From a virus, in the IMG/VR virus record IMGVR_UViG_3300045135_002898, positions 1-27,732 of that record: a stretch of DNA of 27,732 bases; one strand, written 5' to 3'. Shown here piece after piece: positions 5,767 through 24,119 of this stretch (positions are counted from its first letter, which is position 1; every line of letters begins with the position of its first letter). Below the pieces are notes generated by a model, which was not told where the DNA came from, made no database searches, and was given only the letters and a program-made list of their open reading frames with translations. A program made the position numbers and the translations under genes.

Positions 5767-6609
5767 ATGGATCTCGAAAAACTCGCTTCTTCTCCTCGAA
5801 AGAATAACTCCTCTGAGCACCTGCAGCTTTTGGCTCGACGCGCCGTCGGTCGATTTCTGTCGAAGGAATCCGACAATCTGACCAGCGCAGTATCCGAGTC
5901 TATCAAAGGCGAAGGTCTGAACAAGGAGCAGATGCGGCGAGTTGCTGAGATGGCCAACCAAGCGGCGTGGAAAGAAACCTTCTCGGAAGATCGTCAAGTC
6001 AACTTTGCTCCAGCCGACCAGGTTGCGGTGATTGAGAGCTTCTCAGAAAAAGCAGAAGAAGTCCGACCCACAAACTCAGATTACATGTCAGGTCCCCCGG
6101 TGGAGAAAGTAGAAGTCGATCTCCATGAGGCTTTTGGCATTCAGCCAGACAATGAAGCCTACCCTGACTTCAACCCCAAGCAGGAAGCTCAGGAGGTCAC
6201 CGAGAAGGCTGCCTCCGCACGAGACCTGACCCGCCACACGCTGGATCGAATCGAGCGCGAGCTGCCAGAGCGTGCGCAGGACTTCTTCCACCAAGTCAAG
6301 CAAGCACACTTGATGGAAGGACACGCACTCACCAAGATTGCAAAGGCTGTTGCCGAAGTCACAGATTCCAGCTTTGCCACCTATTCGATGCGGGCGGCCG
6401 CGGAAGAATTGGTTCAGCAGGGGATTCGACCCAGCCTGAAAAAAGAAAAGCTGGCCGCAGCAGAAGATCTTCTAATCAATACAGATCACGATCTTATTAG
6501 ATCCGCAGTTCTGTTTGAGAAAGTTGCCAAAGCAGTTGTCCATGCACGAAAACGACATCAGATCGCAGAAGCCGCCTACACCAACTCTCTGAATGCCTTG
6601 CGAGGTTGA
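5767..6609 (+). CDS. Putative head-associated protein with repeated K-x-A motifs
   Basis: A 280-residue, mostly helical, charged protein. It starts 19 bases from the divergent regulator gene, with GGTGGG before the ATG. It begins MDLEKLASS, and EKAAS, TKIAK and EKVAK recur inside. This short motif is shared by many proteins of this module. It is the first gene of the plus-strand head operon, in a position where a portal would be expected, but its length and sequence do not fit a portal. An internal virion or scaffold-like role is a guess from context. Confidence 0.75.
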   Translation: MDLEKLASSPRKNNSSEHLQLLARRAVGRFLSKESDNLTSAVSESIKGEGLNKEQMRRVAEMANQAAWKETFSEDRQVNFAPADQVAVIESFSEKAEEVRPTNSDYMSGPPVEKVEVDLHEAFGIQPDNEAYPDFNPKQEAQEVTEKAASARDLTRHTLDRIERELPERAQDFFHQVKQAHLMEGHALTKIAKAVAEVTDSSFATYSMRAAAEELVQQGIRPSLKKEKLAAAEDLLINTDHDLIRSAVLFEKVAKAVVHARKRHQIAEAAYTNSLNALRG

Positions 6610-6612
6610 TTC

Positions 6613-7554
6613 ATGATTGGTGCTGCTGCAAGAGGACTGCTCAGTCTCGGTGCTCGAGGTACTCGTGCTTACGGGCAGATGTTTGGTGGTGCCCTGCGCC
6701 AGCAAGCTGCAGGTCCGGGCGGCCCTACCGGTAAGGTACTCGGTGGGCTGATGACCGCATCTCTTATCCCCATGACTTTGAGTCCCATTCCTGGAGCCAG
6801 GCAGGCTTTGCAGGCCGTTGGTGTGCCGGAGTTTCTTACACCAAAACTCGTCGAACGTGGAGCCACCGGGACCTACTTCCAGCAATCTCGACGGCTTGCA
6901 GATCAAGTTGCTCGCGCACGTCAGACGCCTCGCATGTCAAATGTAGGTCCGACCAACTACGGCCTTGGAGAGAGAAATATGCCCCGCAATTTAGATTCTT
7001 ATGGGATGCCAAAGAATGCATTTGGCCAGTCCGCTGAGGACATCCGTGCTGCCCACGAGCTGCGCACCAAGCTGGCTTCCATTCAAATGAACATTAGCCC
7101 TTCGCAGCTGGCGCTCCTGACGGCAGGGGCTGCTGCGGGGACCGCTATTGCTGACAAGCTGCTCGGCGGAGCATTGAACAAACTTGAAGGCGCCCGCCGC
7201 AACATGCGGAAACAAACCTCAGAAAAACACACGATGGGAATCCTTAGTCGCGTCAATCCGATGGTTGCCGAAGATCCCCAAACCCGTGCGAGGGCAAGAA
7301 CCCTGTACGGCATCGTTCACCGCAACTCTCCCTACATTGCAAAAGAGCCTGTTGTTGCCGCATCTGTGATCAACACCATGCTTAATTCTCCAACAGATCT
7401 CCCCACTGTGGACCAGTTCCAACAGATGGCCAAGCTCCAAAAAGAAACTGAAAGTTCTCGTGAGCGCTCCCCCTTTAGTAATCAAGACACCAGACTCTCC
7501 GCTCCCCGAAGAGATGACTTGGTGAGGGCAGTCTACGGAGACCTCAATGCATAG
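6613..7554 (+). CDS. Hypothetical head-module protein (313 aa)
   Basis: Starts three bases after the previous stop, with GAGG upstream. The N-terminal 60 residues are rich in Gly, Ala and Arg; a hydrophobic Ala/Gly stretch lies around residues 155-180 (LALLTAGAAAGTAIAD). The C-terminal third is charged. TKLAS, one of the recurring K-x-A motifs, occurs just before the hydrophobic stretch. The end overlaps the protease start by eight bases, implying coupled expression. No family is recognised; an internal or membrane-contacting virion protein is possible. Confidence 0.7.
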   Translation: MIGAAARGLLSLGARGTRAYGQMFGGALRQQAAGPGGPTGKVLGGLMTASLIPMTLSPIPGARQALQAVGVPEFLTPKLVERGATGTYFQQSRRLADQVARARQTPRMSNVGPTNYGLGERNMPRNLDSYGMPKNAFGQSAEDIRAAHELRTKLASIQMNISPSQLALLTAGAAAGTAIADKLLGGALNKLEGARRNMRKQTSEKHTMGILSRVNPMVAEDPQTRARARTLYGIVHRNSPYIAKEPVVAASVINTMLNSPTDLPTVDQFQQMAKLQKETESSRERSPFSNQDTRLSAPRRDDLVRAVYGDLNA

Positions 7555-9106
7555 CAAAACCATTCATTTCAATACCCACAATGATCTGGGTCAGTGCTTC
7601 GCTGAAGCGATTGATATTTCTCGGCGTAGCGGCGGTGGGTTTGAAAAGATTGCTGGCGAGCTGCACCCCGTGCTGCAACGCTTCATGTCTGATCTTCGGC
7701 CTGATCCCAGATACCAGTATGTCTTGATGACTCCAATGGGGGCATATGAGTACTGGGGGATGAATGTCAACGGAGACGTCTTCCCGGAAGTCTCTCTGGG
7801 ATTTGATCCGGACTGTGATGATCCTGTCCAGGTTGCCAAAGAGCTCGAAGCTCGTTTTTTGGCGCCGTTCGGAAAGTCTCTGCCCACGATGCCGGATCGT
7901 CTGTTTGGTCACAAGACCTTCATGGATGCCCTTCGGTATCGACATCACGTGAACAAGAATCCTGAGATCGCTTACGGAGACATCGTCTGCGTGGTGTTCA
8001 ACAAGGCCATGAAGCGCGTCGAGCTCATCTCCAGACACGATCGGGAAAAAGCAAAACGCGTCGGCGCAGATGACATCATCAGAGATCTCGATGAAGGAAA
8101 GCCAAGACAAATCTCAATGGGCTGCAAAGTCCCATTTGATGTTTGTACGATCTGCGGACACATCTCTCGCACTTCAATGGATTACTGCAGCCACCTCAAG
8201 ACTGGCATGGGGACTGTCCGCGAAGATGGAAAGATCATTGGTGCCGTAAACTTCTTCCCACGCTTCTTTGATCTTTCTGATGTTTTCATTCCAGCCGCCA
8301 AAGAGTCTGGTGTGATCATGAAGGTGGCATCTGCCCGCGGAATCAATGCACACTCCAGCAAAACAGCTGGCATCAAGACATCTACGATTACCAAACGATT
8401 CTTGCCCAATGCGGTCTCCGAAGAACTGATTCGACGCATGAGCCAGAGAGAGATGCCTCTGCCCACATCGCTAATGAATAGGTTCAAAATTGGTCCGCTG
8501 TTGTCCACGATGGCTTTGAATGGCATTGTTGCTCGGCCGCGTGAGTTTCAATACGGAATGCTCCGAGCAATGGGCAAGCCGCAGATGGCCTCTCGGCTGC
8601 ATGCTGCTAGACAGGTGTTTGCGCCGTCTAGTGCGCCTGTGACCAAGAGAATCGTTATCATCTCAAGTGGTGACTTCTCACCGCGAATAGCCCGAGCACT
8701 TTCTTCGATAATCCCGCATCGGTCGGGATTTCACCCACATCTCCCAGATAGAATCCTCAGAATGAGAATGGCTCCACCACCAATCATTGAGAAAGTTTCT
8801 CATGTACACGGTGATGACCTATTGGATAAAATAGCCTCGCTGTACTCACAGTATCGGGATTCGGTTAAGTCCTTACCCAATGAGCTTTCAGTCGCAGTAG
8901 AACAGCACCCACAGATCTACAGAGAAAACTTCTTCGGCAATACCCTCTCAAACTCCATGTCTAAGCTGGCGCAAAAACAACAAGATGGAGTAATCTCTAG
9001 CTCGCTCTATATGTGGAACGTATATAGAGATGACGTTAGGGCTTTGCCTGTGCCCTGGGAGACCTCCTCATACTCACTGTCTTCGTCCTTAATTGGACCC
9101 GCTTAG
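7547..9106 (+). CDS. Prohead maturation protease (S78/HK97-like) with zinc knuckle and long C-terminal extension
   Basis: The 519-residue protein has GGAG five bases before its ATG. Residues 60-260 resemble prohead proteases of large phages: NGDVFP (75-80), a His-rich segment HHVNK (133-137) and ISMGC (189-193), whose Ser190 matches the S-[I/M]-G nucleophile motif of the S78 family. Immediately after comes a putative zinc knuckle (C200, C203, C214, H216). A C-terminal extension of about 250 residues is unrecognised. The K-x-A motif appears at FEKIAG (32-37), MKVAS (258-262), SKTAG, LDKIAS and SKLAQ, so self-processing is plausible. The family assignment is from motif memory; the catalytic residues are candidates. 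Confidence 0.8.
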   Translation: MHSKTIHFNTHNDLGQCFAEAIDISRRSGGGFEKIAGELHPVLQRFMSDLRPDPRYQYVLMTPMGAYEYWGMNVNGDVFPEVSLGFDPDCDDPVQVAKELEARFLAPFGKSLPTMPDRLFGHKTFMDALRYRHHVNKNPEIAYGDIVCVVFNKAMKRVELISRHDREKAKRVGADDIIRDLDEGKPRQISMGCKVPFDVCTICGHISRTSMDYCSHLKTGMGTVREDGKIIGAVNFFPRFFDLSDVFIPAAKESGVIMKVASARGINAHSSKTAGIKTSTITKRFLPNAVSEELIRRMSQREMPLPTSLMNRFKIGPLLSTMALNGIVARPREFQYGMLRAMGKPQMASRLHAARQVFAPSSAPVTKRIVIISSGDFSPRIARALSSIIPHRSGFHPHLPDRILRMRMAPPPIIEKVSHVHGDDLLDKIASLYSQYRDSVKSLPNELSVAVEQHPQIYRENFFGNTLSNSMSKLAQKQQDGVISSSLYMWNVYRDDVRALPVPWETSSYSLSSSLIGPA

Positions 9107-9119
9107 CGAGAGGAACACC

Positions 9120-9548
9120 ATGAACATGAACCAGCTTTTGGATTCGATTTACGCAAATGAGTCTGACGATGTCGGCTTGGAAAAAGCCGCTGAGCAGGCT
9201 TTCGTTGGCGCATTCGATACCAATGAAACCAACCCCCTCGACTCCATGTCTCTGGAGGAGCTGATGAAGCTCGCCAGCGACCTGACCACAGAAGATTCCG
9301 TTGAGGAAGCTCCAGTGGAAGAAGAAGTCGTGGAAGAAGAAGTTCTCGAAGAGAATGTTGATCAGGACGAGCTCAACAAGACCGCCGCTGCCATGCTCGG
9401 TGGTAAGATGATGGCTCACTCCCTGATCCACGAGTTCAGCTTGATCAAAGAAGCTGTCGCAAACGGCATCTGCCGCGTGTGTAAGCAGGTCGAGATGGAC
9501 GTCGAAGGCTCTTCTGTCTGCAGCGCATGCTTGTCTGAGGAGGGATGA
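9120..9548 (+). CDS. Acidic head-module protein with C-terminal zinc ribbon
   Basis: The start at 9120 (AGAGGA six bases upstream) is preferred over 9093, which lies inside the protease gene. The 142-residue protein begins MNMNQLLDSIY and has GLEKAA at 20-24, then a strongly acidic Glu/Val stretch (57-85), and a segment GGKMMAH (94-100) that resembles parts of the 13409 and 14139 genes. It ends with a four-cysteine zinc ribbon (C118, C121, C134, C137). It follows the protease, so a scaffold or internal head role is plausible but unproven. Confidence 0.75.
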   Translation: MNMNQLLDSIYANESDDVGLEKAAEQAFVGAFDTNETNPLDSMSLEELMKLASDLTTEDSVEEAPVEEEVVEEEVLEENVDQDELNKTAAAMLGGKMMAHSLIHEFSLIKEAVANGICRVCKQVEMDVEGSSVCSACLSEEG

Positions 9549-10267
9549 TGTCCACACTGAATGATCTGATCATTTCTGCCATCAATGGTGCAGAAGTTGA
9601 TGAGCGGGAATCCCTCGCTGATCTGACTCCTGTCATTGAAAAGACCGCATCTGCTCGTCAGGTTGATGGAGACAACATCGAAAAGATTGCTGCCGCCCTC
9701 GAGTGGTATGCAACCACCGGTGTTGAGGCTTTCGTCGAGCTCGACAAGAAGGCATCTGCACCCAACCTGTCTGAAATCCAGCGTCGCATTGAGGACGGCA
9801 GCTCCTTGACGCAGGCTGTGGCACAGACTCACCCCACGCTCCCTGCCGCCTCCCGTGCAGAGATCGTTTCGACCCTCTCCGAGAAGGTCGCAATGTCCTC
9901 TTACAAGAAGGTGCAGCCTTCCAGCGAAAAGGCACAAGCCTCCAGCGAAAGTGACGAGAGCATCATGAAGGGCGAGCAGCCCGATCCCCGTGATCCTGAT
10001 GCCACTCACCACCCTGCATTGGCTTCCAACGAAGCTGCCATGAACTACACCAAGGCAGAAAAGTCGAAGCACACCAGTGGTTCTCTCCAGAGAATCCTGA
10101 ATGCAAAGCCCTTCGCTGACTCTGGGCTGAAGCAGACCTTCAAGGCTGCTCAGAAGCCTGGTCTGGATCCGAACATCCATGCAAAGACTGCTTCGGATAA
10201 GCAACAGGTTCTTGACCAGATCAAGGCCGCAATTGCCAAGAAATTGGCACAGCAGATCCAGGAGTAA
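9548..10267 (+). CDS. Lys/Ala-rich scaffold-like head protein
   Basis: Either of two tandem ATGs (9545, 9548) could start it; 9548 is preferred because AGGAGG then has a usable spacing and the start overlaps the previous stop by one base. The 239-residue product is highly charged and helical with a Ser/Pro-rich, probably disordered middle. It holds an unusual density of K-x-A motifs: EKTAS, EKIAA, DKKAS, EKVAM, AKTAS. The position between protease and capsid, the composition and the many repeats fit a processed scaffold or core protein; the role is inferred. Confidence 0.7.
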   Translation: MSTLNDLIISAINGAEVDERESLADLTPVIEKTASARQVDGDNIEKIAAALEWYATTGVEAFVELDKKASAPNLSEIQRRIEDGSSLTQAVAQTHPTLPAASRAEIVSTLSEKVAMSSYKKVQPSSEKAQASSESDESIMKGEQPDPRDPDATHHPALASNEAAMNYTKAEKSKHTSGSLQRILNAKPFADSGLKQTFKAAQKPGLDPNIHAKTASDKQQVLDQIKAAIAKKLAQQIQE

Positions 10268-10270
10268 ACA

Positions 10271-10630
10271 ATGCATAAGACAGCTTCAGCAGAGGTAAAC
10301 GACACGCTTATCAAGGCGGCGTCTGCCCTCAGAGAACAGCAAGCAGAACTTGAGTACCTGCGCAATGAACTTGCGCGTAGAGACAGAGAACAGCAAGCAG
10401 AAAAGATCGCCAGTCAGGCTGTTGATCGTGGGATCATGGAGGCTGACGAAGCGAGCGAGTACGCCCAAAGCCTTGCCGAGGGCAACGAGAACTTGGACAT
10501 GGTTGAAAACTTCATCAGCCGGACCGTGGCAGGCGTGCCTCTCGGTTCGTCTCTGCAGAAAACTGCATCCGTGTCAGGCGCATCCGGCGATGATGTTCTG
10601 ACCAACTTCCTCATCACAAGCGATTTTTAG
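10271..10630 (+). CDS. Small coiled-coil scaffold-like protein
   Basis: A 119-residue protein starting MHKTASAEV. Residues 12-48 form a strongly predicted coiled coil (REQQAELEYLRNELARRDRE). Further K-x-A motifs follow: IKAAS, EKIAS and QKTAS. It starts four bases after the previous stop, with GGAG upstream. It lies directly before the decoration-like and capsid genes, a normal place for a scaffold. No sequence family is recognised. Confidence 0.7.
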   Translation: MHKTASAEVNDTLIKAASALREQQAELEYLRNELARRDREQQAEKIASQAVDRGIMEADEASEYAQSLAEGNENLDMVENFISRTVAGVPLGSSLQKTASVSGASGDDVLTNFLITSDF

Positions 10631-10641
10631 GAGATACTAAA

Positions 10642-11079
10642 ATGGCGCTTACACTCTTGAGCCCTCTGAACAACATTTATCGTCGGGACGTGTCGATCAA
10701 CACCGGTACTTTGAGCGTTGATCCCACAAATGCCAACTGTGTCATCGCAGGCCAGTGGGTCACCCTCGACACCAACGGCTTGGCAACCGACCCTACATCC
10801 GCCACCGCCCTGTCCTATCAGGTCTTCTCGGAAAAAGGCGACTACTCTGCGCAGGCTCTGGGCAAGGTCACCATCCTCAACAGCTTCGACTACATTGCGG
10901 AGACCGACCACATCGTTGCCACTTCGATTGTGGCAGGTTCCCAGCTGATGGTGGACGGTGATGGTAAACTCTTGCTTGCCACCACTGGTTCAAACAACTT
11001 CGTAGTCGCAATTGCGCTCGCTGCTCCTTCCAACGGAGTGTTGAAGTACCAGCGCATTTCCCCCTTCCTCCTCGCCTGA
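10642..11079 (+). CDS. Putative capsid decoration/stabilisation protein
   Basis: A 145-residue, low-charge, probably all-beta protein (LLSPLNNIYRRDVSINTGTL; SFDYIAETDHIVATSI). It stands immediately before the major capsid gene and shares with it a nearly identical translation-start region, TTTAGGAGAT then ACTAAA before the ATG, as expected for two highly expressed virion proteins. Small beta proteins in this slot are usually head decoration proteins, but no signature identifies it, so the role rests on position and composition. Confidence 0.6.
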   Translation: MALTLLSPLNNIYRRDVSINTGTLSVDPTNANCVIAGQWVTLDTNGLATDPTSATALSYQVFSEKGDYSAQALGKVTILNSFDYIAETDHIVATSIVAGSQLMVDGDGKLLLATTGSNNFVVAIALAAPSNGVLKYQRISPFLLA

Positions 11080-11104
11080 TAAACCCCTTTAGGAGATTAC
11101 TAAA

Positions 11105-12196
11105 ATGGCTGATACCAGTACATTGAACCAGATCTTCTCTGCTCATCTGGACTCTCCAGAGGGCAAGGAAAAGCTTGCACAGGTCGCTCAGGCTTATGTC
11201 CGCGACAAGCTGCGCGAGAACTCTTTCGCTCGCAAGATTCTGCCCCCCTCTGTCGTGACCAAGGCTGACCTGCAGGTCTCCGTCAACCACGACACGATGG
11301 TCTTTATTGACGAGATCGAGCCCAACAGCAAGGCCGTTTCGATGACCTTCCGTGGCCAGCCCAGCGCTCGCTACATCCAAGGTCAGCGTTACGAGATCGC
11401 CATGCACACCATCTCCTCCGAGCGGTTTGAGAAGACCGAGCAGGAGCTGCTGGCCTACCGCATGCCGATCACCAAGATCATCGAAGACAATGCAGTCAAG
11501 GATATTCAGGAGATTGAGGACCATCGGTTCATCACTCACTGCCGCGCTGCTGTTGCTCAGACTGGTCTGAAGACCACTGGTGAGCAGGCTACCGATGACA
11601 TCGCTGCCAACGGCTCCGGCACCAACTTCGAAGGTGTCCTCCAGCGCAACGACTTGGTCAACCTCTTCAAGCTGCTCGATGGTACCCGCCGTCGCTGCGC
11701 CAAGGTTCTGATGAACGAGGTGAACTGGGACGACTGCCTGACTTGGACCATCGAAGACTTCGGTGACACTGTCCAGGGCAAGGTTGCTGTTGATGGCTAC
11801 ACCTACGACAAGATCATGGGCCGCATGATCGTCCGTACCGTGAAGACCGACATCCTCAAGCAGGGTGACGTCTACGCCTTCACCGCTCCTGAGTTCCTCG
11901 GCAAGTTCCTCGTCCTGAACAACACCAAGTTCTACATCGACAAGGTGGCGAACCTGATCATGTTCCAGGCTTATGAGGACATCGGCATCGGTCTCGGTAA
12001 CATCGCTTCTATCGCCAAGCTGGTTCTCTACAACCGCTCTGCTGATAAGTCCGTTGTTGCTGAGGAAAGTGTTGGTGGCGCTGAGTTGATCGATCAGTCC
12101 GCTGGCAACACCGGTACTGCTCTGTCGTCGAACACCACTGGCATCTTCAACGAAGCCAGCAGCGGCAACACCTACCCCCAAGTCGACCAGTTCTGA
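11105..12196 (+). CDS. Major capsid protein, HK97-fold type
   Basis: The 363-residue protein forms the shell lattice. It starts with a helical arm (residues 1-40, EGKEKLAQVAQAYVRDKLRE), followed by a beta-hairpin/E-loop-like region rich in charged residues (VFIDEIEPNSKAVSMTFRG). The C-terminal half has segments typical of HK97-fold capsids (KVLMNEVNWDD, VYAFTAPEFLGKFLVLN). Length, place after protease, scaffold and decoration-like genes, very strong ribosome site and strongly biased codon use (C-ending codons) all agree. No K-x-A tag lies at the N-terminus itself. Confidence 0.85.
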   Translation: MADTSTLNQIFSAHLDSPEGKEKLAQVAQAYVRDKLRENSFARKILPPSVVTKADLQVSVNHDTMVFIDEIEPNSKAVSMTFRGQPSARYIQGQRYEIAMHTISSERFEKTEQELLAYRMPITKIIEDNAVKDIQEIEDHRFITHCRAAVAQTGLKTTGEQATDDIAANGSGTNFEGVLQRNDLVNLFKLLDGTRRRCAKVLMNEVNWDDCLTWTIEDFGDTVQGKVAVDGYTYDKIMGRMIVRTVKTDILKQGDVYAFTAPEFLGKFLVLNNTKFYIDKVANLIMFQAYEDIGIGLGNIASIAKLVLYNRSADKSVVAEESVGGAELIDQSAGNTGTALSSNTTGIFNEASSGNTYPQVDQF

Positions 12197-12207
12197 TCGA
12201 GTGAGAC

Positions 12208-12702
12208 ATGGCCAAGTATCTAATCAAAAATACAGACGAATATCGGTTGATTTGGGCAGGCCGCTTGCGGTTCCGTCCCGGTCAGCAGATGTGGGTCAAA
12301 GACGTGGATCTTGGCCTTGTCCAAAAACACATCGACGCTGGCACATTTTCCGTGCTGCAGGCGTTGGGGGTTGAAGAAACTGCACCCTCGCCTGCTCTTC
12401 CTTCAGCTCTTTCCTCTGGGCCGGAACCTGCACCTGAACCTGAACCCGTGCTCGAACCAGAGCCGGAGCCAGAACCAGAGCCGGAACCGGAAGCACTCCC
12501 TGAGCCGGAGGTTGTCTCGGAAGCACACACCGAGGCAGCCTCTGAGGAAGAACAGGTGGGGGCGTCTTACACCGAAAGTGAACTCAAGGCGATGGTCTTG
12601 GCCGAGCTTCGGCCGTTGGCTGACAGTCTTGGAATCTCACACTCCGGCGTGAGAAAAGCAGACTTGATTGCACTCATTCTCTCCGCGACAGCTGGTGAAT
12701 AG
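12208..12702 (+). CDS. Pro-Glu-repeat protein with C-terminal HeH/SAP-like domain
   Basis: A 164-residue protein in three parts: residues 1-55, a small globular domain (IWAGRLRFRPGQQMWV); residues 70-102, an extended Pro-Glu repeat; residues 120-160, a helix-extended-helix or Rho-N-like fold (ELKAMVLAELRPLADSLGI followed by RKADLIALIL). Such C-terminal domains bind nucleic acid or protein in other phage and bacterial proteins. The rigid Pro-Glu linker resembles a spacer between two anchored domains. It follows the capsid gene by 11 bases. A head-surface or head-completion role is inferred only from context. Confidence 0.75.
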   Translation: MAKYLIKNTDEYRLIWAGRLRFRPGQQMWVKDVDLGLVQKHIDAGTFSVLQALGVEETAPSPALPSALSSGPEPAPEPEPVLEPEPEPEPEPEPEALPEPEVVSEAHTEAASEEEQVGASYTESELKAMVLAELRPLADSLGISHSGVRKADLIALILSATAGE

Positions 12703-12703
12703 A

Positions 12704-13378: not shown

Positions 13379-13408
13379 TCCGATACCAAAACTTTCATGG
13401 AGAATCAA

Positions 13409-14122
13409 ATGAACCCCACACTTGCAGCCCTTTATGGCACTGGTATGGACAAGGTCGCTTCCGAAGAGGAAGGCGAGTTCGATCTGTCCGAGCTTTCTGA
13501 CGAAGAACTCATGATGCTGCTCGACGTTGGCGAAGCCGATCACGTCGAAGCCGACGAAGAGGACACCCTCAGCAAGATGGCTTCCCAAGGCGATCTCGAG
13601 TACTGGGATATGGCTGGCCGCATCATGGCTCATGCCTACACCGACGAGATGGACAAGGTTGCTGGTACTGAGGAAATTGAGCCTCTGTACTTTGACCTGA
13701 ACGAGCTCGACGCTGACGACCTGTACACGTTGGCAATGGAGAAGGAAGCCGGCATGCGTAGCATGATGAGCGGAATGAGCGGGATGGCCAACAAGGCTGG
13801 TGCTCGCATGCGTAGCATGATGCCCCGACGTCGCGCCCCCGCTGCTCCAGCCGCTGCCCCAGCTGCTCCTTCTGCTGCTCCCGCCGCAAGCGAAGCGATG
13901 GAAGAACTGACTGAGGCCGCCACCAAGGCAGCCAAGGGCGGCTCCCTCAAGGCTACTGGCGTCAAGTTCAAGGCCATGACTTCTCGCATTCCTCGCTTCG
14001 GTCCTCGCATTGAAGCCATGAGCGACGTGAATGCTGGAAAGGTTGCTGTCGGTCTTGCTGGCGGAACCGGTCTCGCCACGGTGGGTACTGGCGCTTACGC
14101 TATGCGTCGTCGGCGCAGCTGA
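13409..14122 (+). CDS. Acidic K-x-A-tagged head protein with Ala/Pro linker and hydrophobic C-terminus
   Basis: The start at 13409 is chosen because GGAG lies six bases upstream; the ATG at 13397 has no site. The 237-residue protein begins MNPTLAALYGTGMDKVAS, almost the same opening as the 14139 gene. It continues with an acidic region, SKMAS, AGRIMAHAYTDEMDKVAG (69-86), Met-rich and Ala/Pro-rich linkers, and a hydrophobic Gly-rich segment (209-230) before a terminal RRRRS. The abrupt change from acidic to basic along the chain and the repeated tag suggest processing during head maturation, which is inference. Confidence 0.75.
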   Translation: MNPTLAALYGTGMDKVASEEEGEFDLSELSDEELMMLLDVGEADHVEADEEDTLSKMASQGDLEYWDMAGRIMAHAYTDEMDKVAGTEEIEPLYFDLNELDADDLYTLAMEKEAGMRSMMSGMSGMANKAGARMRSMMPRRRAPAAPAAAPAAPSAAPAASEAMEELTEAATKAAKGGSLKATGVKFKAMTSRIPRFGPRIEAMSDVNAGKVAVGLAGGTGLATVGTGAYAMRRRRS

Positions 14123-14138
14123 TCAACAGGAGGTTGTC

Positions 14139-14498
14139 ATGGATGAACTGCTTGCAGGAGTCTACGGAACTGGTGGTTTCGAAAAGACTGCGTCTGAAGG
14201 CGGTCCGACCACTTTGCTTGAAATTGCACAGCTCTTTGCTTCTGAAGCAGTAGAGGATGGCGATCTCGAAAAAGTGGCCAGTGCCCGGGATGAAATCTTG
14301 GAGCACCTGCTGTCTTTCGATCAAGCTGGTCGAGCAATCGCTCAGCACGAGTTCACCAAGATGGAGAAGATGGCCTTTGCTGGCGATACTTCTGCCATTG
14401 AGGCGTTCTTTGCTGATGTCGAAGCTGATGTCGAAGAGCCGCAGCACGACGACGTCCAAAGTGCTGTCCTTGCTGAGATTGAAAGACGTCTCGGCTGA
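14139..14498 (+). CDS. Small acidic K-x-A-tagged protein, paralogue of the preceding gene
   Basis: CAGGAGGT five bases before the ATG at 14139 fixes the start. The 119-residue protein begins MDELLAGVYGTGGFEKTAS, matching the opening of the 13409 product, and contains DLEKVAS (43-48) and AGRAIAQHEF (63-72), matching AGRIMAHAY there. It is acidic and helical with no zinc site. It ends the head operon: a strong terminator follows after 26 bases. Function is unknown; a shared ancestry with the 13409 and probably the 9120 genes is visible. Confidence 0.75.
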   Translation: MDELLAGVYGTGGFEKTASEGGPTTLLEIAQLFASEAVEDGDLEKVASARDEILEHLLSFDQAGRAIAQHEFTKMEKMAFAGDTSAIEAFFADVEADVEEPQHDDVQSAVLAEIERRLG

Positions 14499-14524
14499 TT
14501 GACGCACGTTTCGGGTATGTTGCT

Positions 14525-14557: not shown

Positions 14558-14575
14558 CGTAACTGGAGAGCCAAG

Positions 14576-16287: not shown

Positions 16288-16298
16288 GAGAGCAAATC

Positions 16299-19200
16299 AT
16301 GGCATCCATCAAGCGTCCCGGTGTTGAGGTTACTCAGGAGAATGTAACCGCTGTCACCGCAACCACGACCCCCAACCTCGCAACCGTCCTGGTCGGCCCC
16401 TGTTTCCAGATCGTTGATGCCTTCGACGATGCTGGCGCCGTCCAGTCTGAAGCGCTGGCTGGTACCTACCAAGATGGCAAGGGCACGATTGCATACGCCC
16501 TGCCCAGCTTGAAGACGGGTGCAACGGTTGACTCTGACTCGATCCGGGTCTTCCGCGTCGATGGTGCTGGCACCTCCACCGAGCTGCGTGACTCCGACAA
16601 CGAAGAAACCATCGTTTCTGGAACCAGCGGCGACTACAGCCAGTCCGGGGGCACATTCACGGATACGGCTGCAGGTTTTGTGGCCAGCGGTGTCACAAAG
16701 GGTGACTTTGTTCGTGTGACTTATCAAGGTGAAGTGATCGACATCGAGATCACCGGAACAGTGTCTTCTGCGACAGTCTTGACCGTTGACACTCCGATTA
16801 CCTACACGGGCACACTCACATTCGCCACCTACTCGATCGTCCGCAACCCTCCGCAGTTTGTGTACAAGTCCGCTGCAGAGCAGGCCGACGTTGAGTTCCC
16901 GTTGTCTTCCTCCCCGGAGACCAACTACCTGCATGTCGCCATCAAGTCCACCGCGGCTTCTGCCCTGACGGGGGCAAGCGGTGATGGCTTCAAGATGCAG
17001 TTGAAGGAAACCGATCCTGACTACAGCATCACCTACGCCGCAACAGGTACTGGTGTAATTACAGCTACAGGCATCGGTACAGATCTTACGTCTCAGGGGC
17101 TCGCTGTGGGGCCTCTCTCCGACACAAGTGGTGTTGGAAGTGCGGTTGTCTTCTCCCACGCAACCGCAGTTTTGGGGTCAAATACAACTTCTGGAAATAC
17201 GCTGGAAGGTATTGTTGATGCCGATACTGTTGTTCTTGACGTCCATCTTGGTGCCGCAATCACTTCATCGTCTGAGGTAGTTGTTGGTAAGATGCTGGCG
17301 GACACGGTGGGTGATGGGTCTTCTACCACCTACACACAGTCATCCAAAACGCTTGTGTTCCCATCGGCTCACGGGATTCCAAACCCGCCAGGAGACAACA
17401 CCTTTGTACTTCTGGTAAAGGGCGGTTCTGGGACCGGGTCCGGTAACGACGGCCTCTATAAGGTCGCGAGCTACAGCTCAGCTACCGCAGTGATTCTTGA
17501 CGGAACTACAAACCCCGGCGCCGACATGACAGTCGCTTCGGACGGCAAAATCCAGTCGTTTATCGGCTCGGATCTTACCTCTGTGTCATCCGATGGTGAG
17601 TCTGGTACTCTGGGCACAGTCTACGACTACTCTACCAGTTCGACTCTGGGTACGGTTTTGAGTGGCGCTACCGGCAAGTCTATTGTCTTTGGCTCGGATG
17701 CCATGGCCTCCGCAGCCTACCAAGCCATCAACACTGTTTCCGGACGAGTCATTACCCTCACCGGAAACCTGGGCTCTCCCGCAGCTGGTACCGCGGTGAC
17801 AAACGGTGCATCTGGGAAACAAGCCCTTGCAGTCGAGACCACCGCAACGACGAACTTCGTTGAGCCCTCTGGCTCCAGCGTCACTTACCAGATTGAGCTT
17901 CCACGCACCGACGGTCAATCAATCGTTGCAATCGCAACGCTGGCTTCGGACTTGGATGGGGACAGCACTTTCTCCGCAAACTTCGATGCAACCGCGAACG
18001 GAAGCGGCAACGTCACCTACGCTGAGGTCACCACGGTAGACTTCGACGGCGGTGTGGATGCAGACAACATCCTTGTTGATGAAGACCTGATTGGTTCGAC
18101 GACTGCCACCCACAGCATCTACGTCAGCTACAAGGCTCTCCGCGTTGATGTCTCCGACCAAGCCAGCAGCCCTGCTCTGGTTGAGATCAACACCACCACA
18201 GATGTGACCAACCTGCTTGGCAAGATCTCGACGGACAACCCGCTGGCTCTTGCTGCCTACTTCGCAACGCTCCAGTCCCCCTCGACCACTGTGAAGTGCT
18301 TGGGTGTGAGCGCTACAAGTACCGCAGAGCCTGCCGGAACCACTGCTGCCTACTCCAGCGCCCTCACCTACCTCGAAGGTCAGGACGTGTACTCTCTGGC
18401 CTGTCTGAGCACTGATCCTGCAATCCAAGCACTGTTCGAGACCCATGTGACCAGCATGTCGGCCGCAGAGAACAAGAGTGAGAGAATTGCTTTTGTTAGC
18501 CAAGACATGCCTTCCTACACCCCAGCTACGTTGTTGAGCTCGGGGACGGCTGGCAATACTGGTGCATCCTTCAGCAGTGACTACACGTTCACCACAAACG
18601 TCGACTTCTCCTTGAATGCGACCCTCACCACAGTGTTGGCTGACACCGCAAGTGATGACTTGATCCTTGTTGTGACTGCGCGCTCTTCAGTCACGAAGGC
18701 TCCGACCGCCGCGAATGGTGTTCTTCCCATCAAGTATGGTATTCGAGTAGACAAGGCTTCCTCGAGCGCTGCTTCTGACCGCACCACTCTCGTGCTGAAC
18801 TCCACAGACGTAGCCGCTGCGCTGGTTCTTGATTCCACTTGGACAAGCATGGTCGACGTCACCTGGTCACTGTTCCAGATGGGTAGCGCCCTCAGCACCA
18901 CCGCGCAGAAGGCCACCGCTGTTGCAGATCTGGGATCGCAGTTTGAAAACAAGCGCGTGTTCTTGGTCTGGCCGGACAGTGCAAATGCTTCGATTTCAGG
19001 ATCTGCCACGGTGGTTGGTGGTGAGTACCTTGCCGCTGCTTGGGCAGCAAAGGTCGGATTCGAGAAGCCTGAGCAGGCCTTCACCAACACCACGCTGACC
19101 GGATTCAGTAGCCTGAGCAACTCGAACACGCTGTTCTCCCGCTCGCAGCTGGACGCCATCGCTGGTGGCGGTGTCTGGATCACTGTCCAGAACACACCCT

Positions 19201-19538
19201 CCTCCGCTCTGAGTTGCAGACACCAGCTGTCCACGCTGGTTGACACAATCCAGAACAGAGAGCTGTCGATCACCAAGACGGTTGACCATGTTGCCAAGCG
19301 TCTCCGCGCAGTCCTCGAGCCCAAGATTGGTTCTTTCCGAATCACACAATCTTATCTGGATTCTCTGGGTGTGATTGTTGAAGGCGAGCTGCGAAACTTC
19401 GTGGAAACTGGTGTGCTCACTTCTGGAAAGGTCAACTTTGTGGAAGTGGATGATGTGGATGCTGATACAGTGAATATCCAAGTGATCATCACCGTTCCGT
19501 TCCCGGCCAACTACATCGCCCTGACCCTGCAGTTCTGA
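16299..19538 (+). CDS. Tail sheath protein (contractile tail)
   Basis: The 1079-residue protein forms the contractile sheath. The N-terminus (ASIKRPGVEVTQEN) is the characteristic RPG[V/I]-type sheath opening. The C-terminal 100 residues (HQLSTLVDTIQNRELSITKT through VPFPANYIALTLQF) match the conserved sheath core. TAGGAG stands before the ATG. The protein is long for the family because of large beta-rich, Thr/Ser/Gly-rich inserts between residues about 60 and 650. Nucleotides about 17040-17560 use less biased codons than the flanks, which suggests a later insertion. It defines the phage as a myovirus. Confidence 0.9.
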   Translation: MASIKRPGVEVTQENVTAVTATTTPNLATVLVGPCFQIVDAFDDAGAVQSEALAGTYQDGKGTIAYALPSLKTGATVDSDSIRVFRVDGAGTSTELRDSDNEETIVSGTSGDYSQSGGTFTDTAAGFVASGVTKGDFVRVTYQGEVIDIEITGTVSSATVLTVDTPITYTGTLTFATYSIVRNPPQFVYKSAAEQADVEFPLSSSPETNYLHVAIKSTAASALTGASGDGFKMQLKETDPDYSITYAATGTGVITATGIGTDLTSQGLAVGPLSDTSGVGSAVVFSHATAVLGSNTTSGNTLEGIVDADTVVLDVHLGAAITSSSEVVVGKMLADTVGDGSSTTYTQSSKTLVFPSAHGIPNPPGDNTFVLLVKGGSGTGSGNDGLYKVASYSSATAVILDGTTNPGADMTVASDGKIQSFIGSDLTSVSSDGESGTLGTVYDYSTSSTLGTVLSGATGKSIVFGSDAMASAAYQAINTVSGRVITLTGNLGSPAAGTAVTNGASGKQALAVETTATTNFVEPSGSSVTYQIELPRTDGQSIVAIATLASDLDGDSTFSANFDATANGSGNVTYAEVTTVDFDGGVDADNILVDEDLIGSTTATHSIYVSYKALRVDVSDQASSPALVEINTTTDVTNLLGKISTDNPLALAAYFATLQSPSTTVKCLGVSATSTAEPAGTTAAYSSALTYLEGQDVYSLACLSTDPAIQALFETHVTSMSAAENKSERIAFVSQDMPSYTPATLLSSGTAGNTGASFSSDYTFTTNVDFSLNATLTTVLADTASDDLILVVTARSSVTKAPTAANGVLPIKYGIRVDKASSSAASDRTTLVLNSTDVAAALVLDSTWTSMVDVTWSLFQMGSALSTTAQKATAVADLGSQFENKRVFLVWPDSANASISGSATVVGGEYLAAAWAAKVGFEKPEQAFTNTTLTGFSSLSNSNTLFSRSQLDAIAGGGVWITVQNTPSSALSCRHQLSTLVDTIQNRELSITKTVDHVAKRLRAVLEPKIGSFRITQSYLDSLGVIVEGELRNFVETGVLTSGKVNFVEVDDVDADTVNIQVIITVPFPANYIALTLQF

Positions 19539-19542
19539 TTAA

Positions 19543-20445
19543 ATGAAATACTTCGCTCAAAGCATGACCAAGATCGCTCAGGATGGACTGGTTTCCAGTC
19601 CGTCTCCAGCGCAGGTCTATGCTGCGAGGAAGGCGGATGAGCAGTATCGGCAGGACATAAAGAAGGGGTCACCGTCGGGGTATGCGAATGCCGTGGCGGG
19701 GGCAATCATGGTTCCCTTGATTACTCCCGCGCTGTTTAGCTTGCCCTCGATCACTCCTGACAAGATCTCGAAGCACATCAATACGGTTTACGTTGCCGAG
19801 GCCATCAAGCACCGCTTTCCCGGTTTTGGTGACGACGCCAATCATGTGGCTGCCGCGATCGTTAACTCTTCTTTCGACAATCCAATCACACGAGATGTGA
19901 CGGGTAAGATCGTAAAGATGAAGTTTGACATTGCCCATGCCATCTCGATGAACGGCGCACCTGGTGTCGACAAGCAGCGTGGTCAGCGCATTGTGGCTGA
20001 TGCAGATCGTGAGATCAAAAAACTGCTCCCTCCGGGATCTGGAAAAACCCCAAGAGAGCGGTTTGATTTGTTCGATTTCCACATGAAGCAAAGTGTCCTT
20101 CAAGGAAGACCTGCTACTTATCAGGGCATGCTTCAGAACAAGACCATCTTCATGCCAGAGCTCGTCCCCGGGTTCAACTCAGATTACGCAATGGCGCTTA
20201 CGGAGATGGGCAAAGACTTCTATAAGCGGCGGACAGGGAAAGAGTTGACGTCAAATGCGGCGGCAATCAAGTTGATTGCGAAGGCTGCAGGCAACTCCCT
20301 GAAGGCTGGTGTGCCTCTTGCGTTGCTTGCTGGTGGTTTTGCTGCGGCGAGGCACCACAAGTCGACCAAAGGCATTAGAGACTTTCAACGAGGGCAGCGG
20401 CCTGCGCAACAAGACCCGGCTGCAATATGGGGAAACAATGATTGA
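19543..20445 (+). CDS. K-x-A-tagged hypothetical tail-module protein (300 aa)
   Basis: Starts four bases after the sheath stop and has no clear ribosome site, so it probably depends on sheath translation. It begins MKYFAQSMTKIAQDG, with the shared K-I-A tag at 10-12. Hydrophobic stretches lie at 47-70 (YANAVAGAIMVPLITPALF) and near residues 255-270 (AGVPLALLAGGFAAA). The rest is charged. It sits between sheath and tube genes, where conventional tail modules have no gene. No family is recognised. Confidence 0.7.
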   Translation: MKYFAQSMTKIAQDGLVSSPSPAQVYAARKADEQYRQDIKKGSPSGYANAVAGAIMVPLITPALFSLPSITPDKISKHINTVYVAEAIKHRFPGFGDDANHVAAAIVNSSFDNPITRDVTGKIVKMKFDIAHAISMNGAPGVDKQRGQRIVADADREIKKLLPPGSGKTPRERFDLFDFHMKQSVLQGRPATYQGMLQNKTIFMPELVPGFNSDYAMALTEMGKDFYKRRTGKELTSNAAAIKLIAKAAGNSLKAGVPLALLAGGFAAARHHKSTKGIRDFQRGQRPAQQDPAAIWGNND

Positions 20446-20854
20446 TATCATTCATGACTCGTTCATGTCCGAGTTGAGAAAGATCGCCAACGAAGGACAA
20501 ACCACTGCACTTGAAACGCAATCTTCCGATGTTTCATCAAAAGGAGAGATTTCTCCCGCGGTGAAAAACATCTTCGGCATGAAAGAACTCACCAGAATCA
20601 GACAAGAGAAAGACGAAAAAGGAAACCCAGGGAACTCCGCTCATGGATCTCCCGTAATCAGCACACAAGAAGCAGCACAGAAGCTCCACGATGTCGGTAA
20701 GCAGGAAGGCTACCGAGTTGCCGCCAGAGAAGGCGTGCAGCATGCCGCAGCGGTCGGAAAGAAATCATTTGAGCGTGGGTACCAGTCTGCCGCACGACAA
20801 GGTGTTGAGCTCGCTGCCCAGTCCTACATGAAAGGCCGAAACGCCAATACCTGA
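20438..20854 (+). CDS. K-x-A-tagged small protein (138 aa)
   Basis: The start at 20438 is chosen because GGGGA lies five bases upstream and the peptide MIDIIHDSFMSELRKIA closely matches the opening of the 23886 gene; the longer frame lies inside the previous gene. Overlap with that gene is eight bases. The rest of the protein is hydrophilic, with Ala/Gly/Gln-rich helical repeats near the end (GYRVAAREG; GYQSAARQG). These repeats are imperfect copies about 24 residues apart. Function is unknown. Confidence 0.7.
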   Translation: MIDIIHDSFMSELRKIANEGQTTALETQSSDVSSKGEISPAVKNIFGMKELTRIRQEKDEKGNPGNSAHGSPVISTQEAAQKLHDVGKQEGYRVAAREGVQHAAAVGKKSFERGYQSAARQGVELAAQSYMKGRNANT

Positions 20855-20870
20855 ATAGGGAGATTTAAAC

Positions 20871-21996: not shown

Positions 21997-22151
21997 CTCC
22001 CCTCCATTGCCTTCCAGAAGGCAACCAACGACTCAAACATCAGTGCGTTGGTTACTTCATCTTCGTCTTTACTCTGTCTCTTGAGCTCTTCTTTTTTTCT
22101 CTCCCAGAAAGCGTACAGGCTTTCCGGGAGCTTCACTGTGATCTGTTTCAT
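21993..22151 (-). CDS. Ribbon-helix-helix (CopG/Arc-like) small DNA-binding protein
   Basis: A 52-residue frame starting MKQITVKLPESLYAFWERK. A short N-terminal strand with alternating residues followed by two helices (about 10-27 and 32-50) is the pattern of ribbon-helix-helix repressors, which bind DNA as dimers through the strand. AAGGA is almost directly against the ATG, so re-initiation after the upstream gene (stop 12 bases away) is likely. It overlaps the next start by four bases. It may autoregulate this unit; targets are unknown. Confidence 0.65.
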   Translation of the reverse strand: MKQITVKLPESLYAFWERKKEELKRQSKDEDEVTNALMFESLVAFWKAMEGS

Positions 22152-22163
22152 TCCTTCTTGATA

Positions 22164-22517
22164 TCACAAGAAGACTTTGATTGCCTCAATCGTCTCGTCG
22201 ATCCCTCCAGCCTCAAGCTGAAAGGTTCTGCCATTCTCAAGCACCGAAATCTTCCCATCCTGAATGGCGAATGGTTTCTTTGCCAAGAACATTTGCAGAA
22301 GCAGTACGGCTAGCTCCTGCGCACTTGATGCACTCATAAGGTCTTGGGTCGTTTTTACACCAGCAGGCGCCACATCGCGCTCTGAGAGCGGCTGGAGGTA
22401 GTCAACTACCCCGTGGGTAGAAAAGTACACCTTGACGGCCATGGCCGAGGTGGACACAACGATACCATTGTCTGATCCGTCGCGGACAGACTGGCCGGGC
22501 AAGAACAATGCACTCAT
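22164..22517 (-). CDS. Hypothetical protein, first gene of a minus-strand cassette (117 aa)
   Basis: AAGGAG eight bases before the ATG at 22517. The first 35 residues (FLPGQSVRDGSDNGIVVSTS then VKVYFSTHGVVDYL) resemble a small SH3-like beta-barrel; the remainder is helix then strands. No family is recognised. It is the first gene after promoter copy A and is followed by the ribbon-helix-helix gene and a TTG-started gene on the same strand. Confidence 0.65.
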   Translation of the reverse strand: MSALFLPGQSVRDGSDNGIVVSTSAMAVKVYFSTHGVVDYLQPLSERDVAPAGVKTTQDLMSASSAQELAVLLLQMFLAKKPFAIQDGKISVLENGRTFQLEAGGIDETIEAIKVFL

Positions 22518-22554
22518 GTTGTTTCTCCTTTGTATGAGTGGTTGCGGTCGATTA

Positions 22555-22585
22555 TCTTATGCAAACTGAGAAACAGTTTTTTCAC
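22555..22585 (-). promoter_or_regulatory. Shared minus-strand promoter, copy A
   Basis: The minus strand reads GTGAAAA (22585-22579), a 17-base spacer, then CATAAGA (22561-22555). The leader that follows (CGACCGCAACCAC) aligns without gaps to copy E. It serves the three minus-strand genes from 22517 down to 21601. The GTGAAAA block lies right beside the ribosome site of the divergent plus-strand chaperone gene. Confidence 0.65.
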
Positions 22586-22594
22586 GGAGAGAAG

Positions 22595-23440
22595 ATGTCG
22601 AGCTACAGAAGCAAGCTTTCAGAAGGGATTCACAGAGGTATCGGAGCCGGAGTACAGCAGAACCAACAAGCGATGGGTGTTCAAGATCCTGCGCTTGCAG
22701 CAAAGCTGGCAGCCCTGCCACCGGGCGAGCTCCAGAAGGCACTTGAGCAGATTGAGCGAAAGGACGCAGAAGCCGCTGAGCTCCGCGCCGAGCTTGAGGC
22801 CATGGTTGCTGCAGGCAAGTGGGAAGCACCGAAACCTCTCGAAGTGGCCTCTTTCGAAGAGATGGCTGAGTGGAAAGCCGCCTACGACAAAGCCGAGATC
22901 GAGCGGCAAGAGAAGCAAGATCTGGAAAATTCGGATCTAATGTCTCTGTCTATCGGTATGGATCATCCGCTCTACAATCCAATCGCTGACACTGCGCGGA
23001 GACTCCGCATCGAAAAAACTGTCAGTGAGATGGACTTTGATGAGATGGTCTTCCGCGGTCATTGCGATCAAGAGATCCGTATTCGAAAGAACTTCGTTGT
23101 TGTTTTTCGTACACTGACCACACAGCACGGTCTCTGGCTGGAGATCATGCTCTCAAATGCGCCCCGGTCTTCTGAGCAGCATCTGCGCCACTGGTTCTCC
23201 CTGCTGCAGGTTGCGGCCTCCGTGCAGACAATCAATGAGAAGAACATCGGCGCAGATCTGTCGAAATTCTCGAAAGAAGCGCATCGAGAAGACTTCATCA
23301 AGGCTGTTGAGGCCAAGATGGAAGCGCTTGGAAGAATGCCTTCTGCAATCACGGATGACTTGATTGTGAACTACACCTGGTTCAGTGGTCGAGTCCGTCG
23401 GATGCTGTCGGATGACATAAACGAAAAAGTGGGAAACTGA
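22595..23440 (+). CDS. Tail assembly chaperone, short (G-type) product
   Basis: The start at 22595 (MSSYRSKL) has GGAGA four bases upstream; the longer start at 22538 has none. The 281-residue product has a helical, coiled-coil N-terminal third (residues 45-70, EQIERKDAEAAELRAELEAM) and a helical C-terminal region. It is read in the zero frame to a stop at 23438-23440, immediately after the slip sequence GGGAAAC, and the -1 frame continues into the next open frame. This arrangement and the place after the tube gene match tail assembly chaperone pairs (lambda G/GT type). The primary sequence itself was not recognised. Confidence 0.7.
   Translation: MSSYRSKLSEGIHRGIGAGVQQNQQAMGVQDPALAAKLAALPPGELQKALEQIERKDAEAAELRAELEAMVAAGKWEAPKPLEVASFEEMAEWKAAYDKAEIERQEKQDLENSDLMSLSIGMDHPLYNPIADTARRLRIEKTVSEMDFDEMVFRGHCDQEIRIRKNFVVVFRTLTTQHGLWLEIMLSNAPRSSEQHLRHWFSLLQVAASVQTINEKNIGADLSKFSKEAHREDFIKAVEAKMEALGRMPSAITDDLIVNYTWFSGRVRRMLSDDINEKVGN
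23431..23437 (+). promoter_or_regulatory. -1 programmed ribosomal frameshift site
   Basis: The heptamer G GGA AAC is in the correct phase (GTG GGA AAC TGA) and has the X-XXY-YYZ form; lambda uses GGGAAAG. The two frames overlap only from 23416 to 23440, and the heptamer falls inside that short window, directly before the zero-frame stop. Downstream, GCTCAG (23451-23456) pairs with CTGAGC (23468-23473), and a GCCC/GGGC pairing (23447-23450, 23459-23462) could make a pseudoknot-like stimulator. Confidence 0.75.
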
Positions 23441-23889
23441 TCGAGCGCCCGCTCAGTTGGGCACGGGCTGAGCTTTTGTATGAAAGACTAAGTGGGCGCG
23501 AAGACATCAATCCACTTCAAGAAAGACTCTTGATTTTGGTACACATTCGAAAAAGAAAGATCCGTCTCAAAGAGATGGAGATTGTGGCAATTGCAGGAAT
23601 CCGAGCAGAGAACAAAGATTCTCTTATTGGATTGCTGGAGTCCTACAGGGACATGCTGTTTCCCGGATTGTCCGAGGTTGATCGCGGACCCACAGAAGAA
23701 GAAAAAGCAAAGAAGGCGCTCGCAGAAGAAAGTCAAAAAGTCTACCTTGTTAAGCCATATGATAAGGTCACTGATGAAGTCTGGAAGGAGATGGCAGAGA
23801 AGGGCGGTGATGCCGCATTCATTGCTCATCGAGAGCTGAGAGAACGTCAACGATTTAAATCCCGACTCACAAACAAGGGTAAAAAATGA
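23437..23889 (+). CDS. Frameshift-only extension of the tail assembly chaperone (T-type)
   Basis: The -1 frame after the slip site adds 150 residues (LIERPLSWARAELLYERL...), giving a 431-residue fusion with the 22595 product. The only independent start is a TTG at 23476 (137 residues) with no ribosome site, so expression by frameshift is more likely. The region is basic and helical (LVHIRKRKIRLKEMEIVAI), with a charged C-terminus ending KGKK. In known phages such extensions contact the tape measure or tube during assembly; here that is inferred from the arrangement. Confidence 0.7.
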   Translation: MIERPLSWARAELLYERLSGREDINPLQERLLILVHIRKRKIRLKEMEIVAIAGIRAENKDSLIGLLESYRDMLFPGLSEVDRGPTEEEKAKKALAEESQKVYLVKPYDKVTDEVWKEMAEKGGDAAFIAHRELRERQRFKSRLTNKGKK

Positions 23890-24119
23890 TTGAAGAGATT
23901 ATCCAGCAAGCGTTTGAGGACGAGCTGCACAAGATCGCACAGTCTGTCGGGATCTACAGCACCAAGACCCCCACACCAAAGATGCCTGGTCCAATGAAAA
24001 AAAGACCGACATCGATGGGGTTCAAGCCCCCCAAATCAATGTCGGTCACGCCCGCGGCGCCACCGCCGCCGACACCCATGAAGATTCCGGGTGCGGCAGC
24101 GGGGCCGGACTACCTCTAG
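23886..24119 (+). CDS. K-x-A-tagged small Pro-rich protein (77 aa)
   Basis: The ATG overlaps the previous stop (ATGA). The protein opens MIEEIIQQAFEDELHKIAQS, closely matching the 20438 product, then becomes a Pro/Lys/Met-rich tail (PPPPTPMKIPGAAAG) that is probably disordered. A helical tag followed by a disordered tail suggests that the tag is the functional part. Its 3' half carries, on the opposite strand, the terminator of the convergent minus-strand gene. No family is recognised. Confidence 0.7.
   Translation: MIEEIIQQAFEDELHKIAQSVGIYSTKTPTPKMPGPMKKRPTSMGFKPPKSMSVTPAAPPPPTPMKIPGAAAGPDYL
23997..24047 (-). terminator. Rho-independent terminator of the minus-strand gene 24116-24664
   Basis: On the minus strand GACCGACAT pairs with ATGTCGGTC (24047-24039 with 24012-24004), an inner G/C stem extends the hairpin, and seven T follow (24003-23997). 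It lies entirely inside the coding region of the convergent plus-strand gene 23886-24119. Confidence 0.8.

Follow-up and report, generated by a model that had tools for sequence, protein, structure and literature searches.

A Lys-x-Ala motif in virion proteins of large environmental phages as a candidate head-protease signal and cargo tag

The subject of this study is a short Lys-x-Ala motif that recurs in proteins encoded by the plus-strand virion module of an IMG/VR virus record (IMGVR_UViG_3300045135_002898), whose 27,732 bases were analysed over their whole length and are referred to here as the window. We consider it likely that this motif, with a full form of [LMIF]-[ED]-K-x-A-[SAG], is the recognition and cleavage signal of a head maturation protease of the T4 gp21/assemblin type encoded in the window, and that a longer N-terminal version of it acts as a cargo tag. 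Two kinds of the motif can be distinguished, namely sites clustered densely in core proteins and, on single-site cargo, a stricter tag at the N-terminus, and its bearers belong to a large, mostly uncultured family of roughly 190-kb environmental phages.

Enrichment of the motif and its bearers

In an unbiased scan of every gapped triplet in 23 plus-strand proteins, K..AS came first (18 observed against 2.7 expected), and the pattern [LMIF][EDSQ]K.A[SANGQ] occurred 15 times in the same proteins, against 0.5 in within-protein shuffles that never exceeded 4 in 300 rounds. Sites with a final [SANGQE] lie within the first 40 amino acids (aa) of 11 of 26 plus-strand proteins and of none of 19 minus-strand proteins (Fisher p = 7.6e-4), with totals of 31 and 0, respectively. 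Given the shuffles and the strand contrast, Lys/Ala richness does not explain the motif, and the recurrence reported in the original prediction, which had been made from the sequence alone, indeed stands well above that of shuffled Lys/Ala-rich sequences.

Searches with the protease and the capsid protein yielded well over 100 related IMG/VR loci, including contigs of 184-198 kb, as well as the named relatives Salmonella phage Arash, three Vibrio phages and, more distantly, Bacillus phage G; in bacterial genomes, a single protease relative was found, on a contig binned with a deltaproteobacterial metagenome-assembled genome. Among the 3,417 proteins called from the relatives' loci with a simple gene-calling script, hydrophobic-x-K-[ILVTM]-A exceeded block-shuffled expectation at every position, with a peak in the first 35 residues, while in the same proteins the R-x-A control showed no excess, and the E-x-A control no excess in all bins but one. 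Because many of these loci are homologous, the counts are not independent, and those based on clusters are safer. A chance or compositional origin of the motif was ruled out by the shuffles and the two controls. The residue that follows the Ala is Ala, Ser or Gly in 55% of internal sites and in 71% of N-terminal sites of a type marked by the pattern YGTG, against a background of 25% and control values of 28% (R-x-A) and 26% (E-x-A), as would be expected for a scissile bond.

The original prediction had listed eight carriers of the motif near the protein start (genes at 5767, 9120, 10271, 13409, 14139, 19543, 20438 and 23886), all of which read as described, and three N-terminal cases can be added, in the protein at 9545 (IEKTAS, K33), the protease (FEKIAG, K34) and the major capsid protein (KEKLAQ, K23). 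The core-like proteins and the capsid protein are listed below, with a slash at the candidate scissile bond and motif positions in nucleotides (nt).

5767-6609, plus strand: core-like protein with N-terminal LEKLA/S (nt 5773-5790) and several internal K-x-A sites
9120-9548, plus strand: core-like protein with N-terminal LEKAA/E (nt 9177-9194)
9545-10267, plus strand: scaffold-like protein with a cluster of sites, including IEKTA/S (nt 9635-9652)
10271-10630, plus strand: scaffold-like protein with MHKTA/S (10271-10288), AEKIA/S (10397-10414) and LQKTA/S (10553-10570)
11105-12196, plus strand: major capsid protein (phrog_2522 major head protein, E value 8.9e-15) with KEKLA/Q (nt 11165-11182)
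13409-14122, plus strand: core-like protein with YGTG-type N-terminus MNPTLAALYGTGMDKVA/S (motif nt 13445-13462) and internal sites
14139-14498, plus strand: core-like protein with YGTG-type N-terminus MDELLAGVYGTGGFEKTA/S (motif nt 14178-14195)

Conservation in the relatives is high, as K-x-A is kept in the first 45 aa by 57/59 homologues of the 5767 protein, 18/19 of 9120, 29/30 of 10271, 26/27 of 13409 and 6/6 of 14139. Beyond residue 45, the 5767 family contains 123 sites against 10.6 expected, followed by the families of 10271 (19 against 1.3), 13409 (16 against 1.5), 9545 (11 against 1.7), 9120 (7 against 0.3) and 14139 (7 against 0.2). The dense internal copies that had been pointed out in scaffold-like proteins are real, and this roughly 10-fold enrichment is confined to the core-like families, with other structural families at or below expectation. 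The capsid-protein site is conserved as well (K23 in 42/45 and A25 in 41/45 homologues); the capsid protein of phage G has no N-terminal K-x-A, so that its structure, 6wkk, is uninformative in this respect.

The suggestion that the motif extends beyond heads was not borne out. In homologues of the proteins at 10642, 12890, 16299 (tail sheath) and 20871 (likely tail tube), K-x-A is never present in the first 45 aa, and it is rare in those of 14576 (2/35) and 15505 (3/27). A role as a tail-protein signal was therefore ruled out for the conserved sheath and tube families, all of which are without an N-terminal K-x-A.

Several other proteins deserve mention here. Arash gp225 (149568-150170 of its record) has six K-x-A sites and no structural label, the pattern one would expect for a scaffold that is broken down and expelled. 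Other K-x-A sites of this phage read LVKEA/GAAMS in the capsid protein, MTKQA/SAVD in the scaffold-like gp223 and LTKQA/AAAE in the protease. A recurring family whose N-terminus carries V-x-[FI]-D-F-Y-D-D (G009:C1:119282-120988, G012:C1:110049-111632, G014:C1:57920-59017 and G010:C1:59792-61630) has several K-x-A sites and is encoded at some distance from the main head cluster. In the window, the protein at 12208-12702 has a stretch of Pro-Glu repeats with a Rho_N/SAP-like domain downstream of it.

The head protease and the sites at its domain edges

The AlphaFold model of the protease (predicted local distance difference test, pLDDT, of 85) places sites 1 and 2 at either edge of the catalytic domain; pLDDT is below 50 at residues 29-32, and residues 264-287 form a disordered stretch.

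7547-9106, plus strand: head maturation protease, 519 aa
7640-7657, plus strand: site 1, FEKIA/G (K34), directly before the catalytic domain
7667-8329, plus strand: predicted catalytic domain (residues ~41-261), followed by a helical C-terminal extension
8315-8332, plus strand: site 2, IMKVA/S (residues 257-262), at the end of the catalytic domain
8354-8371, plus strand: extra site SSKTA/G (272), downstream of the domain in the disordered linker
8957-8974, plus strand: site MSKLA/Q (473), in a low-confidence loop of the C-terminal extension (pLDDT <50 at 470-480)

Site 1 is conserved within a stretch where gaps and substitutions otherwise abound. All 59 homologues have K34, 54 have Ala and 5 have Ser at position 36, 56 have Phe, Leu or Met at position 32 (P5), and 54 have Ser, Gly or Ala at position 37 (P1'). 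Site 2 is kept in about three quarters of them (K in 45/59, A in 44/59). A further K-x-A at 428 was not counted as a site, since it forms part of a helix and lacks a conserved Ala.

Structural comparison of residues 50-249 matched T4 gp21 (5jbl_C) with a Z of 9.6 over 131 aa at 2.8 A, and herpesvirus proteases with Z of 6-8.3, the best unrelated rows being at about 6. Because a plain Foldseek search with the model returned no significant protease match, we regard the fold match as moderate, though above the unrelated rows; a sequence search against solved proteases found no match. Ser190 and His134, the candidate catalytic residues, are invariant in the 59 homologues. The structural comparison points to a protease with the assemblin/gp21 fold.

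Inteins, recognized by Hint and LAGLIDADG matches, interrupt the protease genes of several relatives, at L134:2806-6825, L088:4046-6910 and L061:9935-12730. In the latter two, the Hint match starts at about residues 183-189, probably near the counterpart of the invariant Ser190, and protease action may for this reason require prior splicing.

Among the more distant relatives, the phage G protease still has LVKTAA, LEKVAS and LLKIAS near its ends, and no K-x-A enrichment was seen in Rhodococcus phage E3 and Gordonia phage Pupper. With such a mixed picture, co-variation in distant relatives does not reveal a clear switch in specificity.

The N-terminal tag and its link to the protease gene

The relatives carry a strict N-terminal tag, [AS]-F-x-D-E-L-x-K-I-A, for which 56 matches begin within residues 1-20, compared with 0.3 expected from shuffling within residues 1-40. 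In a scan of IMG/VR DNA that was not seeded by the relatives, 53 of 84 matches fell in the first 30 residues. Merging both sets gave 129 tagged proteins, which fall into 93 clusters that have nothing in common outside the tag (the first ~20 aa), the scan set including a few evident chance matches such as a transketolase-like protein and FEDEF paralogues. Conservation begins at about residue -4 and does not continue past the Ala, an end that is partly imposed by the search pattern. Since codon use in the tag follows the genome background, selection acts on the protein, and a DNA- or RNA-level element was ruled out.

Pfam matches on tagged proteins include SNF2 helicases (L240 and L257) and a fusion of a glyoxalase and a GNAT acetyltransferase (L317); MazG (L274), a zinc peptidase (L322) and a C92/NlpC-type amidase were matched more weakly. 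Three relatives carry the tag on their SNF2 helicase, and a 38%-identical Arash protein starts directly at the helicase domain. The L240 helicase and its 57%-identical counterpart G009:155704 have F-x-D-E-L-E-K in common, with K-E-A in place of K-I-A in the latter.

The tagged proteins of the window, with further genes of the virion module, are as follows.

2018, plus strand: terminase
16299-19538, plus strand: tail sheath, 1079 aa
19543-20445, plus strand: tagged 300-aa protein, MTKIA/Q (nt 19564-19581), between the sheath and tube genes
20438-20854, plus strand: tagged candidate cargo, 138 aa, tag MIDIIHDSFMSELRKIA (nt 20438-20488), between the sheath and tube genes
20871, plus strand: likely tail tube, named from its place after the sheath
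23886-24119, plus strand: tagged candidate cargo, 77 aa, Pro-rich tail, tag MIEEIIQQAFEDELHKIA (nt 23886-23939)

The proteins at 20438 (MIDIIHDSFMSELRKIAN) and 23886 (MIEEIIQQAFEDELHKIAQ) do share I-I-x3-F-x2-E-L-x-K-I-A, as had been noticed, and the carrier said to end in a Pro-rich tail is the latter. Neither these two nor the protein at 19543 has homologues among the collected relative loci, and all three are lineage-specific. In two relatives, other tagged proteins occupy the slot between sheath and tube that holds 19543 and 20438 here, which fits exchangeable cargo better than a tail function. The sheath is itself unusually long, and among known sheath families the best match is limited to its C-terminal part.

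The tag mostly travels with the protease gene. A protease profile matched 29 of 37 records with an N-terminal tag, among them every one of the 16 that reach 100 kb or more, and 2 of 31 control records, a contrast that is somewhat inflated because control contigs are shorter. The controls had mostly internal matches (the N-terminal matches held by four of them were judged to be chance), and the two that matched the protease also look like members of the clade.

In Arash, N-terminal sites are present in 6 of 59 proteins labelled structural, tail, capsid, portal or similar and in none of 150 others (Fisher 4e-4), and sites anywhere in 13/59 and 5/150 (Fisher 6e-5); these p-values are nominal, as several motif variants were tried, and with the stricter K-x-A-S variant alone the difference between structural and other Arash proteins was not significant. 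The record states neither the labelling method nor a head location, and the position of several labelled genes far from the structural cluster suggests that the labels come from virion proteomics. A large Arash protein annotated as RNA polymerase beta subunit (130093-134670) starts with MPKSAS, and its counterpart in Vibrio phage D69 (L205:3289-7872) with MPKKAS; judging from these N-termini, the two may hint at head-packaged polymerases.

Proposed mechanism, alternatives and implications

Under the interpretation that we favor, the protease would recognize hydrophobic-[E/D]-Lys-x-Ala/small. Core and scaffold proteins, with many sites each, would be cut up during prohead maturation, and cuts in the protease's own linkers would free the catalytic domain from the N-terminal segment and the C-terminal extension. 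The segment [A/S]-F-x-D-E-L-x-K-I-A, likely an amphipathic helix, would bring unrelated proteins into the prohead in the manner of the capsid targeting sequences (CTS) of T4 internal proteins such as IPIII and of P1 DarB, and would probably be trimmed off after its Ala. We infer the cutting itself and the precise bond that is cut, as well as the packaging of cargo and its delivery to the host. Enrichment over shuffles and conservation make the core idea of the original prediction, a protease site, a capsid-loading tag or both, the best-supported reading, with the refinement that the motif is not one thing: the two classes differ at P1' (55% against 34% Ala, Ser or Gly).

Several results weigh against this interpretation. 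The proteases of the T4 type that are known cleave on the C-terminal side of Glu rather than Ala (PMC9026906, PMC10052503). The fold match of the protease is moderate, and its sole sequence-level match to a named head protease family is weak (E value 0.21). The capsid-protein site lies inside a predicted helix (residues 18-39 of the structure model) and not in a linker. Tagged cargo does not show the depletion of further sites that in vivo cutting might impose (15 against 11.8 expected), and the residue after the tag's Ala is weakly constrained (A/S/G in 34%, background 25%), for which reason we read the tag mainly as an address that is probably, and not certainly, trimmed. Tag and protease could be linked through shared ancestry within a single clade, and the link alone is no proof of an interaction.

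Some of these points would suit an N-terminal tag that is an uncut docking peptide for the core or capsid, with cleavage limited to the internal and protease-flanking K-x-A sites, which we see as a possible but distinctly less probable situation. It would account for the near-background residues after the tag's Ala, compared with those of internal and YGTG-type sites, and for the strong fixation of the upstream F, D, E and L, and in the T4 CTS the targeting and processing residues are indeed separable (PMC9026906). Nonetheless, the tag retains the very K-x-A that characterizes the sites resembling cleavage sites, and conservation ends abruptly with the Ala, even if the pattern imposes this in part.

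It is rather unlikely that the motif is a mere assembly contact, such as a helix to which the capsid protein or scaffold binds, and unrelated to proteolysis. The helical setting of the capsid-protein copy would agree with such a contact, as would the spacing of the tag's F, L, I and A, which would place them on one helix face, but disordered linkers on either side of the protease domain hold the sites, with Lys in 59/59 homologues, internal sites have a small residue after the Ala, and herpesvirus assemblins, which are of the same fold, cut Ala-Ser bonds. We find it quite improbable that the tag directs its bearers not to the capsid but to the host membrane, or to a protease or other factor of the host; a likely amphipathic N-terminal helix and cargo that includes enzymes possibly acting in the host would be compatible with this, but the tag is nearly restricted to records with this head protease, and the motif is common to core proteins, protease and capsid protein. 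Lastly, a coiled-coil composition rich in Lys and Ala, or a common origin by gene duplication, can hardly be credited with the recurrence, because although several core-like proteins are rich in Lys, Ala and Glu and some carriers share the YGTG pattern (and may be paralogous at these N-termini), composition-preserving shuffles, the R-x-A and E-x-A controls and the 93 clusters without similarity downstream of the tag refute it.

The proposed protease signal and cargo tag have partial precedents. As in T4, a short N-terminal peptide is found on otherwise unrelated proteins (here putative head cargo), a short motif is common to core, cargo, capsid protein and protease, and the protease domain matches gp21; T4 core proteins are cut into many pieces, and the same two-part logic of targeting and processing applies (PMC9026906). 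T4, however, cuts after Glu (L/I-x-E), whereas the enriched site here ends in Ala with Lys as the third position back, and dozens of unrelated proteins across the clade bear the tag F-x-D-E-L-x-K-I-A. In phage P1, the N-terminal 30 residues of DarB suffice to send a reporter to the head, and Dar proteins counter host restriction (PMC9024508). The candidate N-terminal packaging signal and the SNF2-type helicases tagged here recall that system by role; a sequence relation to P1 was neither looked for nor seen, and the P1 signal has been shown on DarB (PMC9024508). The phiKZ and SPN3US proteases (gp175 and gp245) cut after Glu, at S/A-x-E or A-x-E, and resemble the case proposed here in the short-motif maturation of many head proteins, the N-terminal propeptides and the preference for Ser after the cut; auto-cleavage of the C-terminal propeptide of gp245 is likewise reminiscent of the site layout in our protease, although most SPN3US propeptides are long (111-254 aa), with some of 20 and 24 aa (PMC10052503).

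Herpesvirus assemblins (UL26-type) match the protease-domain fold with Z of up to 8.3. Their scissile bonds are Ala-Ser, and they are not known to require Lys at the third position back or to have a multi-protein N-terminal cargo tag. Their autoproteolytic release from the scaffold part (PMC4498786) also resembles the layout of sites seen here. A phi-x-K-x-A/small specificity would be unusual for a T4-like maturation protease, and a phage protease with Lys-x-Ala specificity is not described in the literature searched, nor was a description of the motif found in the open literature, subscription papers and preprints being outside that search.

We lean, with some reserve, toward a modular delivery system in which a single N-terminal address of ~15 residues, recognizable by eye, loads fast-changing, unrelated enzymes into the head, the Lys-x-Ala protease removes the address, and the injected set can be listed from sequence. 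On the evidence of their domain matches, delivered enzymes could include helicases, the acetyltransferase/glyoxalase, MazG-like proteins and amidases, in addition to many unknowns. If this reading is correct, the proteins packaged in the head, and probably injected, could be listed from sequence only in many uncultured phages, and which early host-takeover proteins such phages inject would become directly testable. A head protease with the T4 fold and Ala/small rather than Glu specificity would be closer in this respect to the herpesvirus proteases, and would bear on the evolution of this enzyme family, and the tag would provide a short, clean address for putting proteins into phage heads.

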